Below, piece by piece: positions 2,445 through 51,540 of a stretch of 64,000 nucleotides of DNA (within the stretch, counting starts at the first letter, position 1; the number at the start of each line of letters is the position of its first letter). The DNA is from Carnobacterium divergens (GTDB lineage: Bacteria; Bacillota; Bacilli; Lactobacillales; Carnobacteriaceae): assembly GCF_900258435.1 (NCBI RefSeq), contig NZ_LT992558.1, forward strand, positions 1,827,518 through 1,891,517. Reading direction: 5' to 3'. The notes below the pieces were generated by a model that worked only from the letters and a program-made list of their open reading frames with translations, did no database searches and was not told the DNA's origin. Position numbers and translations under genes: made by a program.

Positions 2445-4577
2445 CTATTTTGTTTCTTTATCTGTTGTTTCTTCTTCGTCTTTTTTAAGCAAGGCTTTAC
2501 GAGAAAGGTTGATACGTCCTTGGTTATCGATTTCAGTAACTTTAACCATTACTTCATCATTTAATGCAAGAATGTCTTCTACTTTACCAACGCGCTCATT
2601 TGCAAGTTCAGAAATATGAACTAAGCCATCTTTTCCTTTAATAATTTCTACAAAAGCACCGAATTTTTCAATACGTTTTACTTTACCATTGAAAATTTCA
2701 CCAATTTTAATTTCTCTTGTTAAATCTTCAATAATTGTTTTCGCTTTTTGAATCATAGCGGCATCCGTTGAAGCAATGCTGACATTTCCTTCTTGATCGA
2801 TATCAATTTTAACGCCAGTTTCTTCAATGATTGCATTGATTTGATCGCCACCACGACCAATAACCACTTTGATTTTTTCTGGTTTAATTTTAATCATTTC
2901 AATCTTAGGAGCATATTCGCTAAGCTCTAAGCGTGGTGCAGAAATTGTAGAAGTTAATTCATCTAAAATTTCTAAACGGGCTTTTTTAGCTTGTGTTAAA
3001 GCTTCTTCTAAAATTTGTTGAGTAATTCCGTCAATCTTAATATCCATTTGAAGAGCTGTAATTCCAGCAGTCGTTCCAGCAACTTTAAAGTCCATGTCGC
3101 CTAAATGATCTTCCAATCCTTGAATATCCGTTAACACCGTATAGTTTTCGCCATCTTTAACAAGTCCCATTGCAATCCCTGCAACTGGTGCTTTAATTGG
3201 AACACCTGCATCCATTAATGCTAACGTTCCAGCACAGATACTTGCTTGAGAAGAAGAACCATTTGATTCTAATACTTCAGCAACCAAACGAATAGTGTAA
3301 GGGAAGTCCTCTTCACTTGGAATTACTTGAGACAAAGCACGTTCTCCTAATGCACCGTGACCGATTTCACGACGACCAGGACCACGACTTGGGCCAGTAC
3401 TTCCTACTGAATATTGAGGGAAGTTATAATGATGGATGAAACGTTTGCTCTCTTCAATTCCTAAGCCATCAATAATTTGATGTTCTCCAAGAGGTGCTAA
3501 TGTTGCAATGGATAAAGCTTGTGTTTGTCCACGAGTAAACAATCCAGAACCATGAGTACGCGGCAACATGCCTACTTCAGAAGCTAAGTGACGAATCTCA
3601 TCAATTTTACGGCCATCTGGACGGACTTTATCAACTGTGATTAAACGACGTACTTCATTTTTTTCTAAATCTTCCACAATTTGTTTCACTTCTTTAAAAA
3701 TACGGGCCGCTTCTTCATCTGCAGCATATTTTTCTTCAAAATGAGCAATCGCTTCTTCTTTTACTGATTCAATATTTTCTTCACGAGCTAATTTTTCTTC
3801 TGTTTGAATAGCGTCAATCATTTTTTGTTTAAAGGCAGCATTTACTTCTGCATCTAACGCTGCATCAATTTGTAACAATGCTATTTCCATTTTTTCTTTG
3901 CCAACTGCTTGAGCAATTTCTTCTTGGAAAGCAACTAATTCTTTAATGGCGTTATGACCAAAAAGTAACGCGCCTAACATATCTTCTTCTGAAACTTCTT
4001 TAGCACCACTTTCAACCATGTTAATAGCGTCTTTTGTTCCTGCAACGGTTAAATGAATATCTGATAATTCGTTCTGTTCAACTGTTGGGTTAATCACGTA
4101 CTCGCCATTAATACGACCAACATCAACACCTGCAATTGGGCCATTAAACGGAATATCTGATATACAAAGTGCTAATGAAGAACCAAACATTGCAGCGAAT
4201 TCTGGTGAGCAATCTTGTTCTACTGACATCACAGTATTCGTAATTTGAACTTCATTACGGAAACCTTCTGCAAACATTGGACGAATTGGGCGGTCAATCA
4301 AACGAGCAGTCAAAGTTGCTCTTTCACTTGGACGCGCTTCACGTTTAATAAATCCTCCTGGAATTTTACCAACTGCATACATTTTTTCATCATAGTTCAC
4401 TGTTAATGGGAAAAAGTCAACATCTTTTGCTTTTTTACTAGCTACTGCGGCTGTTAATACAGCAGTGTCGCCATAACGGATTAAAGCAGCTCCATTTGCT
4501 TGTTTTGCTAATTGGCCCACTTCAACCTTTAACGTGCGGCCAGCCCACTCTTTTTTAAAAATTTGTTTTTCTGTCAT
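2445..4577 (-). CDS. pnp: polyribonucleotide nucleotidyltransferase (PNPase)
   Basis: The 710-residue product is the phosphorolytic 3'-5' exoribonuclease of mRNA turnover, which forms a trimer in the cytoplasm. Two RNase PH-like domains (about 1-220 and 310-545) flank a helical linker. A KH domain (about 555-615, with VIGRGG) and an S1 domain (about 620-690) follow, and a short charged tail ends the protein. Length and domain order are normal. The Shine-Dalgarno AAAGGAGAA precedes the ATG. It lies downstream of rpsO in the conserved rpsO-pnp order, separated by 224 bp with a probable terminator. Confidence 0.97.
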
Positions 4578-4751
4578 ATTTTATAGTTCTCCTTTGTTGT
4601 TCAAAGTCGAAAATCTTATTATCACACAGATACACACAAGCTACTAAACAAATGTGAACACCTAACTTAGTTTAGATACTCGCATTTGCATAGTAGGATA
4701 CCTTTTTTTAGACAATCGATTTCTTCCTTGACAAGTTGATTTGATTCCAAA

Positions 4752-48320: not shown

Positions 48321-48360
48321 AAAAGAAGACTTTATCTTATCAAAGATAAAGTCTTCTTTT
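48321..48360. terminator. mgtA terminator
   Basis: AAAAGAAGACTTTATCTT pairs perfectly with AAGATAAAGTCTTCTTTT around a 4-nt loop directly after mgtA. Confidence 0.9.
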
Positions 48361-50972
48361 TAAAGCCACTCTTTATTTATTTTAATATAAATTGTTTTAA
48401 CCAGTTGCACTGCAATCCCATAAGCCAATACAATCAGAACCATCCATTTCCAATAAGCTGTTGGCAAGGCTACAAAATTAAAGAACCCACCTAAAGCTGT
48501 ATCAGGAATAAGAATTGCAATCACAATCACACAAATTGTCGAAATGGTTACAGGGATGCTCGCCATACTTTGAATAAACGGAATTTTCTTAGTTCGAATA
48601 ATATGAACAACTACTGTTTGAGTAATCAATCCAATAACGAACCATCCAGAATGGAATAGGGCTTGATTGCCTATTGTATTGGCGTGGAAGACAAAATACA
48701 TTAACAAGAACGTCAAAATATCAAAAATCGAACTAATCGGTCCAATGGATAAGGTGAACTTCATCAAGTTTCCAGTGTTCCATTTAGCTGGCTTCATTAA
48801 GTCTTCTTCATCCATTCGATCCCATGGAATCGTTAATTGCGCAACATCATAAATCAAATTTTGAACAAGAAGTTGGATAGAAAGCATTGGTAAAAAGGGT
48901 AAGAACGCACTTGCTACTAACACACTAAATACATTCCCAAAGTTCGAACTAACCGTCATTTTAATGTATTTCATCATGTTACCAAAAACCGTCCGACCTT
49001 CTAACACACCATCTTCTAAAACCGTTAAGCTTTTTTCTAGTAAAATAATTGAACTTGCTTCCTTCGTAATGTCTGCTGCCGTATCCACAGAAATGCCGAC
49101 ATCTGCTTTTCGTAAAGCAGGAGCATCATTGATTCCATCTCCCATAAAGCCAACAGTGTGACCTTTTTTCTGAAGAAGAGCAATAATTCGTGCTTTTTGC
49201 ATCGGGTTTAACTTAGCAAAAAGATTGACTTTTTCTGAAGCTTCCATTAAGGCTTCGTCACTCATTGTTTCGATTTCATTGCCTAATAAAACTTGTCCTA
49301 CTTCAATACCGACATCTTTACAGACTTTTTGTGAAACAATTTCGTTGTCTCCAGTTAAAACTTTTACCGTTACACCATGCTCGTGTAGCGATTTAATAGC
49401 TGTGATGGATGATTTTTTTGCTGGGTCAAGAAATCCCATAAAACCAGCTAAAATCATTTCATTTTCATCTTCAATACTATAGATGGCTGTATCATGAACC
49501 TCTTTTTTATAGGCTACACCTAGCACACGCATGCCATCTTGATTCATATCCACACTAACGGTCAACATTTTTTCTCGCAATGAGTCGGTTAAGGGAATCA
49601 CTTCATCGTTAATTTCCACATGGGAACAGATTTTCATCATTTCTTCTACGGCGCCTTTTGTAATCATTAACTGATGACCTTCGTTATTGACTGCTACTGT
49701 TAAGCGCCGTCTAGAAAAATCAAATGGAATTTCATCGATTTTTTCAACATGTCCTATTTTCTGTGCCAAATTGTTTTCTTCATAGTAATTAATAACTGCG
49801 TGATCCATTAAATTCTTCCAACCTGTTTGATAATTGGAATTCAAAAAGGCTAAATCTAGAACTTTTTTACAGTTATCACCAATTGGACTAACGTGTTTAA
49901 CAAGTACAACATGGTCTTCTGTGATTGTTCCAGTTTTATCTGTACAAAGAATATCCATTGCCCCTAGATTTTGAATAGCATTGAGTTCTTTAACAATTAC
50001 TTTTTTCTTAGACATTTTAATGGCGCCTTTTGCTAAATTACTTGTAATAATCATTGGCAACATTTCAGGCGTCAAGCCAACTGCTACAGCAATCGCAAAG
50101 AAAAATGCTTGGCCCCAATCGCCTTTAGTCAAACCATTCAGTAGAAAAACAATCGGAACCATGATAATCATAAAACGAATTAACACTTTACTGACGTTCT
50201 TTACTCCGCGATCAAAACTAGTCTCTCCTCTTTTTTCAGAAACATTAGACGCGATATCGCCAAAGAAGGTATCATTTCCTGTTTTTAAAATAATTGCTCG
50301 ACCTTGTCCACTTAAAACATCGGTTCCCATAAACGCTAAATTGGCCAAATCTAAAGCCGTATCTTCTGCTGTTGGTTCTTCTACTTGAACTAATTTTTCA
50401 ACTGGCATTGACTCGCCGGTTAAAGATGCTTGATTCACAAACAAATCTTTTGTCCAAATGAAACGTGCATCTGCAGGAATCATATCCCCCGTTGATAAAT
50501 TAACAATATCACCTGGAACAACTTCATCAATTGGGATTTCAGTTGTTACTCCGTCTCTTGTGATTCCACATGTTGTTTCAATTAATTCTTTTAAAGCTAA
50601 ACTGGCTTTTTGTGAGCGGTATTCTTGAATAAAACGAATGCCAACACTCAGTAAAATCATCACACCCATTACAAGACTTGCTTCAAAGTCATTGGTTAGT
50701 GCAGATACTACCATTAAAAGAGCTAACACATACACAAAAGGATCTTTAAAAGCTTCTATTAATAGAATAAACCATGGGGTTGGTCTTTGTGTTGCCACTT
50801 CATTTAGACCGTATTCTGCTAACCGCTTGCTTGCCATTTCTTCACTTAAACCATTTGGGCCTGTTTGGTAATTTATCATTACTTTTTTTTCAGATAAACG
50901 AGCTAATTTTTTTAAATCGTTATCTTTTGATTTTTTTTCAATTTGAATTTTTTTTTTTCGATTCATCATCAT
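48360..50972 (-). CDS. mgtA: magnesium-translocating P-type ATPase
   Basis: The ~870-residue P3B-type ATPase imports Mg2+. It has a cation-ATPase N-terminal domain, the actuator motif SLTGES, the phosphorylation site CTDKTGTIT, the nucleotide-binding domain and hinge motif GDGINDAPAL, and about ten transmembrane helices. The frame begins at 50987, but that ATG overlaps the Shine-Dalgarno GGAGG. The first ATG of the following ATG triplet (50972) is ideally spaced from it. It lies behind an M-box riboswitch and a 36-codon ORF, so Mg2+-dependent control is well supported. Confidence 0.96.
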   Translation of the reverse strand: MMMNRKKKIQIEKKSKDNDLKKLARLSEKKVMINYQTGPNGLSEEMASKRLAEYGLNEVATQRPTPWFILLIEAFKDPFVYVLALLMVVSALTNDFEASLVMGVMILLSVGIRFIQEYRSQKASLALKELIETTCGITRDGVTTEIPIDEVVPGDIVNLSTGDMIPADARFIWTKDLFVNQASLTGESMPVEKLVQVEEPTAEDTALDLANLAFMGTDVLSGQGRAIILKTGNDTFFGDIASNVSEKRGETSFDRGVKNVSKVLIRFMIIMVPIVFLLNGLTKGDWGQAFFFAIAVAVGLTPEMLPMIITSNLAKGAIKMSKKKVIVKELNAIQNLGAMDILCTDKTGTITEDHVVLVKHVSPIGDNCKKVLDLAFLNSNYQTGWKNLMDHAVINYYEENNLAQKIGHVEKIDEIPFDFSRRRLTVAVNNEGHQLMITKGAVEEMMKICSHVEINDEVIPLTDSLREKMLTVSVDMNQDGMRVLGVAYKKEVHDTAIYSIEDENEMILAGFMGFLDPAKKSSITAIKSLHEHGVTVKVLTGDNEIVSQKVCKDVGIEVGQVLLGNEIETMSDEALMEASEKVNLFAKLNPMQKARIIALLQKKGHTVGFMGDGINDAPALRKADVGISVDTAADITKEASSIILLEKSLTVLEDGVLEGRTVFGNMMKYIKMTVSSNFGNVFSVLVASAFLPFLPMLSIQLLVQNLIYDVAQLTIPWDRMDEEDLMKPAKWNTGNLMKFTLSIGPISSIFDILTFLLMYFVFHANTIGNQALFHSGWFVIGLITQTVVVHIIRTKKIPFIQSMASIPVTISTICVIVIAILIPDTALGGFFNFVALPTAYWKWMVLIVLAYGIAVQLVKTIYIKINKEWL

Positions 50973-51020
50973 TTTCTTTGCCTCCATTTCTTGTCAAAAG
51001 AAAAGAGGAACAGTTCCTAA

Positions 51021-51131
51021 TCAATCCAACTTCGTTAAATGGTCAGTATCACTAGGAGGTTTATTCACCTTTTCCTTCGACTTCTGACTTCCAGGGTCAC
51101 TATTTTCACTTGCTTTAGTCGTACTTTTCAT
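51021..51131 (-). CDS. 36-residue ORF between the M-box terminator and mgtA
   Basis: A small ORF starts MKSTTKASENSDPGSQ and ends HLTKLD, with the good Shine-Dalgarno GAGGTGAG at normal spacing. It lies downstream of the riboswitch terminator and 48 bp upstream of mgtA, so it should be induced together with mgtA at low Mg2+. The peptide is hydrophilic, with Ser, Lys and Asp, a PP pair at 28-29, and no membrane segment. I do not recognise it. It could be a small regulator of MgtA, a leader peptide coupling translation, or chance. Confidence 0.55.
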   Translation of the reverse strand: MKSTTKASENSDPGSQKSKEKVNKPPSDTDHLTKLD

Positions 51132-51227
51132 GATACTCACCTCACTTTGAATGGTTAGGAACCCAGAGAACAAGAGATCTACTTGAACTGATTTCCATTG
51201 AAAATTAAACCCGTTTTGTTTAGATGC

Positions 51228-51268
51228 ATGCAAAAAAGCACATACTCAAAGAACAGAGTATGTGCTTG
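51228..51268 (-). terminator. riboswitch expression-platform terminator
   Basis: A 12-bp perfect stem AAGCACATACTC / GAGTATGTGCTT with an 8-nt loop is followed on the minus strand by TTTTTT. It lies directly downstream of the M-box. Confidence 0.92.
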
Positions 51269-51324
51269 GAAAGTTTCATCTAAACCATCACATCACAAGA
51301 TAAGCGCAACAAAATAAGCTACTT

Positions 51325-51485
51325 ATACTTTCTCCATCATCGAGCTTTAGCACTATATGGCGTAGATTATTCATCAGCTACGTTAAAAATGACCTTAATT
51401 CGATCAAACTTGTTGACCCATTGGCATCTCTCGATGTTTTTGGGCAGCAGCATATTTCCATATAGGAGCCTCACCTAACAGAAGC
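51325..51485 (-). ncRNA. M-box (ykoK) magnesium riboswitch
   Basis: On the minus strand the sequence contains the hallmark segments of the M-box aptamer in order: GTTAGGTGAGGCTCCTATATGG, then GCTGCTGCCCAAAAA, then GCCAATGGGTCAACA, and finally CCATATAGTGCTAAAGCTC. The outer helices pair (CCTATATGG with CCATATAG). M-box RNAs fold on Mg2+ and terminate transcription. Here a terminator and mgtA follow, which fits low-Mg2+ induction of Mg2+ import. Confidence 0.95.
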
Positions 51486-51511
51486 GTGTATTTAATTTTC
51501 TTTACGTGCTC

Positions 51512-51540
51512 AGTATAGTGTTCAGAAATTGATTCGTCAA
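51512..51540 (-). promoter_or_regulatory. M-box/mgtA promoter
   Basis: TTGACG and TATACT are spaced by 17 bp on the minus strand, about 25 nt upstream of the aptamer. Confidence 0.8.

Follow-up and report, generated by a model that had tools for sequence, protein, structure and literature searches.

A candidate Mg2+-sensing leader peptide between the M-box riboswitch and mgtA of Carnobacterium divergens and its relatives

A 36-codon open reading frame (ORF) lies between the M-box riboswitch and mgtA of Carnobacterium divergens. It is probably a cis-acting, Mg2+-sensing leader peptide of the MgtL/MgtQ type that would act as a second gate behind the M-box. The assignment to this type was made by layout, acidic start and an RNA model; the peptides are too short and too variable for homology. 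Direct support comes from the layout, its recurrence, an acidic bias of the N-termini, predicted alternative RNA structures and compensatory pairing. The leader ORF would be translated, ribosomes would fail on it at low Mg2+ and the output of MgtA would change.

The whole stretch of DNA analyzed (the window) comprises 64,000 nt of C. divergens. A promoter-like site, the M-box, its terminator, the ORF and mgtA are arranged consecutively on the minus strand (Table 1). A preliminary description of the region had proposed this order, with the ORF downstream of the switch and preceded by a good Shine-Dalgarno sequence (SD) of its own, and all of this is borne out by the family models and the SD duplex energy.

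Table 1. Features of the M-box–mgtA locus, with positions in the window
Feature	Position	Strand	Basis or remark
Promoter-like sigma-70 site, TTGACG-17-TATACT	51512..51540	-	Consensus scan
M-box (ykoK) Mg2+ riboswitch aptamer, RF00380	51324..51489	-	135 bits, gathering 44, E 3e-30
M-box intrinsic terminator	51236..51267	-	12-pair stem, then TTTT
36-codon leader ORF, SD GAGGTGAG	51021..51131	-	ATG 51131, stop 51021; SD duplex -9.1 kcal/mol
RNA arm A, leader-ORF codons 18-24	51062..51081	-	Partner of arm B in the 'aborted' state of the model
RNA arm B, leader-ORF stop to mgtA SD	50993..51012	-	Alternative partners: arm A or SD region
mgtA SD region, GGAGG at 50985-50981	50981..50992	-	Masked if paired with arm B (model)
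mgtA, Mg2+-importing P-type ATPase	48360..50987	-	ORF list; TIGR01524, 1266 bits

The aptamer scores above the gathering threshold of its family and is followed by a terminator, as expected for an M-box riboswitch. Both parts are ordinary with respect to RF00380, while the leader ORF and the RNA arms lie outside the family model. Seven promoter-like matches are found in the region compared with a mean of 5.6 in shuffled sequences, and the site listed is weak alone. Terminator-like matches amount to one, compared with a mean of 1.1 in shuffles; the terminator is meaningful because of its position directly behind the aptamer and not because of this count. The 36-codon ORF is nested in a longer frame starting from TTG 51233. 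For mgtA, the strength of the GGAGG sequence makes ATG 50972 the more likely start, 15 nt downstream of the longest-ORF start at 50987. The stop codon of the leader ORF is located 48 nt before this inferred start. Simple stop-start coupling is unlikely because of this distance and was rejected as the mechanism. The idea of a leader that couples translation, also raised in the preliminary description, holds in so far as the best explanation is a leader ORF with an effect on the expression of mgtA. A match to the Listeria sRNA rliD (73 bits, gathering 50) is present at 4400-4684 of the window on the plus strand.

The leader peptide of the window (MKSTTKASENSDPGSQKSKEKVNKPPSDTDHLTKLD) contains an acidic/proline stretch formed by E9 and S11-D12-P13-G14. 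It matches no family in Pfam or NCBIfam and had correctly been called unrecognized. The 36 residues show no hydrophobic stretch on direct reading and hence no transmembrane helix of the MgtS or MgtR type, in agreement with the earlier view of a hydrophilic product that differs from the membrane peptide MgtS. As in MgtL and MgtQ, the ORF has its own SD and is situated upstream of a Mg2+ P-type ATPase gene.

Of 295 sampled genomes of the window's order, 209 contain an M-box. The leaders examined are those of 26 M-box-bearing MgtA loci and of 90 additional M-box loci; 52 of the latter encode an MgtA-like protein within ~1.5-2 kb of downstream sequence. In each leader, the upstream ORF (uORF) of 8-60 codons with the best SD was chosen regardless of its peptide sequence, and an SD of -6 kcal/mol or better was regarded as strong. 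By this rule, a strong-SD uORF is found in 65 of 76 M-box–mgtA leaders, which are related by descent and therefore are not independent events. The background is 14 of 124 ordinary 5' regions of the window's own genome (one genome, genes chosen mechanically; one of the 14 uORFs contains masked letters). The 76 leaders were taken from 78 after L138 and L185, for which no start was found, had been dropped; L019-L022 had been excluded beforehand as having no nearby M-box. The count of 65 of 76 retains mis-picked cases with a hydrophobic ORF (L126, L158), an 8-aa ORF (L188) or a weak candidate (L011, L112, L114, L144). Application of the rule gave nothing convincing in L011, L179, L190 and L194, and no such uORF is present in L032, L033 or the mgtA loci L019-L022, which have no M-box within 1.5 kb upstream. 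Of the nine families encountered, eight include carriers of the uORF (f1-f4, f6-f9); the sole f5 genome among those listed has no M-box.

Where the gene next to the M-box is not mgtA, a strong-SD uORF is found in 3 of 33 loci, or in 2 of 20 if the control is limited to leaders of at least 150 nt (13 of the 33 are shorter). One of these three matches, L189 (MEPVPIW..), has an acidic start itself. This control represents 33 of 38 loci, with L199 excluded for a masked stretch and L187, L191, L197 and L200 for having no ORF of 150 aa. The uORF therefore accompanies mgtA and not the M-box.

Several other M-box arrangements were observed. A tandem pair of aptamers precedes mgtA in L179 (G155:C16:177527-178040). 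In L123, L129, L136, L155, L181 and L182, the M-box is located directly before a membrane protein that is FtsW/RodA-like by eye (KIDWLLLLPYLxxSxIGLL). In L113, L115-L121, L142 and L143, the M-box is followed by a conserved membrane protein whose N-terminus resembles MxTxKEKKFTPAxLS. Enterococcus plasmids contain M-box-like stretches (matches H2-H9 and H18), and three of the records have two such places.

The modelled output of the leader is access to the mgtA SD. A genuine leader peptide with transcription termination as its output, by Rho or by an intrinsic terminator, is unlikely for the window. Rho is present in the window's own genome and Salmonella MgtL acts through Rho (sections of PMC11282234), but six genomes carry the uORF without a match to Rho (PF07497; G019, G040, G047, G054, G028 and G058), and Rho was accordingly rejected as a general output. 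Furthermore, a simple scan of the stretch between uORF and mgtA detected an intrinsic terminator in 0 of 70 leaders of the window's order, where this output was rejected as well. Six leaders of Bacilli outside this order (L228-L233) consist of M-box, first terminator and acidic uORF, and a second intrinsic terminator follows between uORF and mgtA in five of them (L229-L233; in L233 the ORF with the best SD differs from the acidic ORF). For these five leaders, tandem transcription attenuation is the likelier output.

The acidic uORF peptides are 12 to 43 residues long and their C-termini differ among genera. Acidic or proline-containing starts recur, such as MDDSSQ.., MEDSSH.., MDDSSS.., MDESPV.., MGDDPQ.., MDHPAPER.., MEAPSPEP.. 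and MIQIDDHPEPH.., and the motifs ..SDPGS, ..EPGS and ..NDSPGDD are found in the MgtA group of the window. In 50 non-redundant peptides, Asp or Glu occupies 53 of 150 positions at residues 2-4, compared with 19 of 302 beyond residue 24. The mean number of acidic residues at positions 2-8 is 1.68, whereas 2000 shuffles within the peptides reach 1.32 at most. Of the 50 peptides, 39 contain a di-acidic or acid-proline motif between residues 2 and 15 (strict motif); shuffles yield 17.7 on average and 28 at most. Together with E9, D12 and P13 of the window, these early residues correspond to those of MgtL and MgtQ. The strict motif is absent in L009, L013, L015, L124, L126, L137, L154, L158, L163, L188 and L192; in L126 and L158, a hydrophobic ORF had been picked by the uORF rule. 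In the six genomes without a PF07497 match, the uORFs are of the IDDHPEP type (L028-L031) or acidic without the strict motif (L013, L015).

A hydrophobic stretch of ~25 aa, apparently one transmembrane helix, occurs near the start of mgtA in some genomes. It is a separate small ORF in L126, L138 and L158 and is fused to MgtA as an N-terminal extension in L122, L146, L156, L159 and L160. A single query with this stretch gave matches in 5 of 98 genomes.

The composition of the N-termini makes it quite improbable that charged tRNA, for proline or a different amino acid, is what the leader ORF senses instead of Mg2+. Salmonella mgtP would be the precedent, being responsive to proline shortage according to sections of PMC3641672, and proline is located in or near the motif of several members (DPGS, EPGS, DHPAPE, HPEP). 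However, many others have no proline near their start (MDDSSQ.., MEDSSH.., MDDSSS..), and proline accounts for 4 of the 150 residues at positions 2-4, where acidic residues prevail.

A sister genome shares 111 of 111 nt of the ORF and 2426 of 2625 nt of mgtA. Since stretches of the M-box are likewise identical between the two genomes, the identity of the ORF alone is no proof of coding. The pN/pS ratio of the ORF is 0.63 over equal-length pairs (16 of 20 close pairs); for a subset of eight pairs it is 0.67 in frame compared with 1.05 and 1.22 in the other frames. These ratios suggest weak to modest purifying selection on the leader peptide. The ORF is above chance, given its identity in the sister genome and ORFs of the same kind in most of the M-box–mgtA leaders examined. 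The preliminary description had named conservation of the frame and a synonymous bias among relatives as checks. The reading frame is indeed kept in relatives; the synonymous bias is present but modest.

It is very unlikely that the ORF encodes a stable small protein with a binding or regulatory role at MgtA like that of enterobacterial MgtS or MgtR. Conservation of the frame in close relatives and the in-frame pN/pS would agree with such a protein. On the other hand, the N-terminal acidity alone recurs, the window peptide is devoid of a hydrophobic segment and selection is weak. A small partner of MgtA, which had been considered for this ORF, is rejected as the main reading because length and C-terminus vary and codons 18-24 also serve as an RNA arm.

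The preferred reading, a leader peptide acting through the RNA, was modelled through the energy cost of opening the mgtA SD while parts of the ORF are covered by a ribosome. For the window, opening costs 2.9 kcal/mol with no ribosome, 0.8 kcal/mol if the first seven codons are covered and 5.5 kcal/mol if coverage extends over the whole ORF. In this model, pairing of arms A and B frees the mgtA SD, whereas arm B pairs with the SD region once arm A is covered. Results for all 69 leaders are mixed. A comparison of whole-ORF and early masks gives 29 fitting and 24 reversed cases, and a ribosome placed only at the stop codon gives 23 fitting and 33 reversed cases. Coverage of the whole ORF was therefore rejected as a general 'completed' state, although it separates the states in the MgtA group of the window.

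In this group (23 leaders; L003, a near copy of L002, was left out of the shuffle test), the whole-ORF minus early difference averages +2.67 kcal/mol, compared with -0.96 to -2.53 kcal/mol in 20 shuffled sets. The free minus early difference averages +2.21 compared with -0.08 to -1.16 in shuffled sets. The differences are in the top tenth of the leader's own shuffles for 15 and 17 of the 23 leaders, respectively; L007, L008, L010, L014, L023, L184, L193 and L201 are outside the top tenth for the former. In the second MgtA group (31 of 33 leaders), a single-ribosome mask performs better than the whole-ORF mask. With this measure, which was picked after the mixed result for the 69 leaders was known, the change in opening energy from a ribosome at codon 2 to one at codon 9 averages +3.30 kcal/mol (-0.25 to -1.15 in 15 shuffled sets) and free RNA minus codon 2 averages +2.15 (-0.47 to -0.98). 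Here, 25 and 22 of the 31 leaders reach the top tenth among shuffles of the same leader, and L028, L122, L125, L137, L141 and L177 are outside for the codon-9 comparison. About a quarter to a third of the leaders fail the test in this model.

Additionally, helix A:B shows compensatory changes at five pairs, read directly from an alignment of five leaders of three genera on a shared core. These pairs form in 3, 4, 4, 5 and 5 of the five leaders. In silico, the progress of a ribosome along the ORF decides which of the alternative structures forms, with part of the leaders not fitting. That the arms control mgtA as an RNA-only element, for instance by direct Mg2+-dependent folding, with an incidental ORF is highly improbable, since the excess of strong SDs over the background and the acidic bias, which is a peptide-level feature, speak against it, even though pairings beyond shuffles, compensatory changes and modest selection on the peptide would suit it.

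For the proposed leader peptide, a single modelled ribosome was also walked along the ORF in 56 leaders, after exclusion of 17 near-duplicate or mis-picked rows and three without a usable uORF. The SD is often open while the ribosome passes the acidic/proline stretch and closes afterwards. The opening energy rises from 2 to 10 after MEAPSPEPLQ in L016, from 1 to 8 after MEHPSPSRQK in L017, from 0 to 4-7 after AEPSEP in L172, from 1 to 4-9 after KENP in L195 and from 2-3 to 8 around MIQIDDHP in L029. In the window, modelled values are ~1-3 at codons 1-12 and 5 at codons 14-24, and the SD is reopened at codons 25-33. The profiles of L004 and L006 are nearly flat. A jump of at least 3 kcal/mol is present in 32 of the 56 loci. 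The fraction of Asp, Glu and Pro is 0.49 in the six residues before this jump and 0.21 after it (0 of 5000 shuffles); for the window's group alone, the fractions are 0.36 and 0.17 (5 of 5000 shuffles). The result is weaker in the second group, because both motif and jump are N-terminal there anyway. Across loci, the positions of motif and switch are not correlated (Spearman ~0 overall, negative in the second group), and a locus-by-locus match between RNA switch and acidic motif was rejected. In the model, their coincidence is regional and not position-exact.

The following sequence of events would fit the locus. If Mg2+ is scarce, the M-box aptamer would remain unformed and the polymerase would read through the terminator (gate 1). 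Ribosomes would then initiate on the leader ORF (gate 2). At sufficient Mg2+, they would move past the acidic/proline stretch at codons 9-14 and onto arm A, which they would cover, and the mgtA SD would be closed by pairing with arm B. At scarce Mg2+, the acidic nascent chain would slow or destabilize the ribosome near the N-terminus; failure before arm A would allow A:B pairing and release the SD. Most likely, an open SD requires ribosomes that dwell at early codons or repeatedly reach them, as proposed for MgtQ, because the mRNA is free after drop-off and fairly closed in many loci.

Mg2+ sensing via destabilization of the ribosome is established in enterobacteria, and counteraction of this destabilization by L31 or EttA belongs to the criteria for leader peptides of the MgtL/MgtQ type. 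If the proposed mechanism is true, the same principle operates in Gram-positive bacteria in series with the M-box. A single mRNA would test Mg2+ twice: the M-box would read free Mg2+ by RNA folding during transcription, and the acidic leader would read the Mg2+ state of the ribosome, by its stability, during translation. This would account for the presence of the uORF at mgtA yet seldom at other M-box genes, assign a testable function to small ORFs of a class that has been overlooked and offer a possible reading of the mycobacterial M-box uORF. With a chance slightly short of even, mRNAs of Mg2+ P-type ATPases may be double-gated in this way across much of Bacillota, and mgtA of several phyla may generally be accompanied by acidic leader ORFs, with sensing kept and the output (SD masking, intrinsic terminator or Rho) swapped between lineages.

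The preliminary description had set the ORF apart from MgtL. This is appropriate in that the ORF lies behind the sensing RNA, but the acidic/proline stretch and the alternative RNA structures are MgtL/MgtQ-like. MgtL is not known to be preceded by an M-box. As described in sections of PMC11282234 and PMC11552253, ribosomes drop off MgtL at EPDP, by which mgtA is switched on at low Mg2+; sections of the former confine the effect to the first 20-30 residues. The leader peptides of mgtA in Salmonella and E. coli and those reported here share the acidic/proline start. According to the same sections, however, MgtL acts on transcription, in Salmonella via Rho, whereas the modelled output here is the mgtA SD and some carriers are without a Rho match.

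MgtQ of Salmonella is an 8-aa leader ORF between mgtC and mgtB. It is under PhoP control and its mechanism has been shown by experiment; Asp2 and Glu5 are its acidic residues and alternative stem-loops mask the mgtB SD (sections of PMC8092293). The window resembles MgtQ, as portrayed there, in a short, strong-SD ORF immediately upstream of the gene for a Mg2+ P-type ATPase, in the acidic N-terminus and in alternative stem-loops that mask or free the SD of the transporter. Differences are the length of 36 aa, the position behind an M-box terminator instead of mgtC and the Gram-positive host. Furthermore, the arms of the window form a three-way arrangement (A:B or B:SD) instead of the four arms described for MgtQ, so mutation of the start codon need not lower the output of the window, unlike in MgtQ. 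The order in L147 (M-box, two ORFs with the first MgtC-like by eye, acidic uORF, mgtA) resembles mgtC-mgtQ-mgtB of Salmonella. In L135 and L138, the acidic uORF is located directly before mgtA, with one other ORF between M-box and uORF.

In Mycobacterium tuberculosis, the small ORF uORF2 (Rv1805A) is likewise conserved between an M-box and the genes it controls, and its conserved N-terminus includes a proline (sections of PMC12810186). These sections call its role unclear and propose no destabilization of ribosomes; what the M-box controls there is access to the uORF's own SD, and the genes are pe20-ppe31-mgtC. By analogy, it may be of the same kind as the leader of the window. In the accessible parts of the open-licence literature, no report of an acidic leader ORF behind an M-box and before mgtA in Bacillota was found. 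Among ribosome-profiling studies, the main text of PMC9426450 contains no match to the locus under the terms searched, and PMC13009471 yielded two unrelated passages and nothing on the locus; the available sections of PMC9495176 do not mention such an ORF.

As an outgroup and positive control, 80 MgtA loci, mostly of other phyla, were collected with an MgtA alignment. By the uORF rule, 32 of the 80 pass -6 kcal/mol, and 14 of the 32 have the strict motif in residues 2-10 of the best ORF. In enterobacteria, MgtL-like ORFs before mgtA are detected in this way, e.g. in Lelliottia (MDPDPTPLLNGRMRSIR). Acidic starts before mgtA are also present in Providencia, Xenorhabdus, Pseudomonas, Variovorax, Romboutsia and an M-box-bearing Rhodococcus; outside Bacillota, such candidates for acidic leader ORFs are only a lead.
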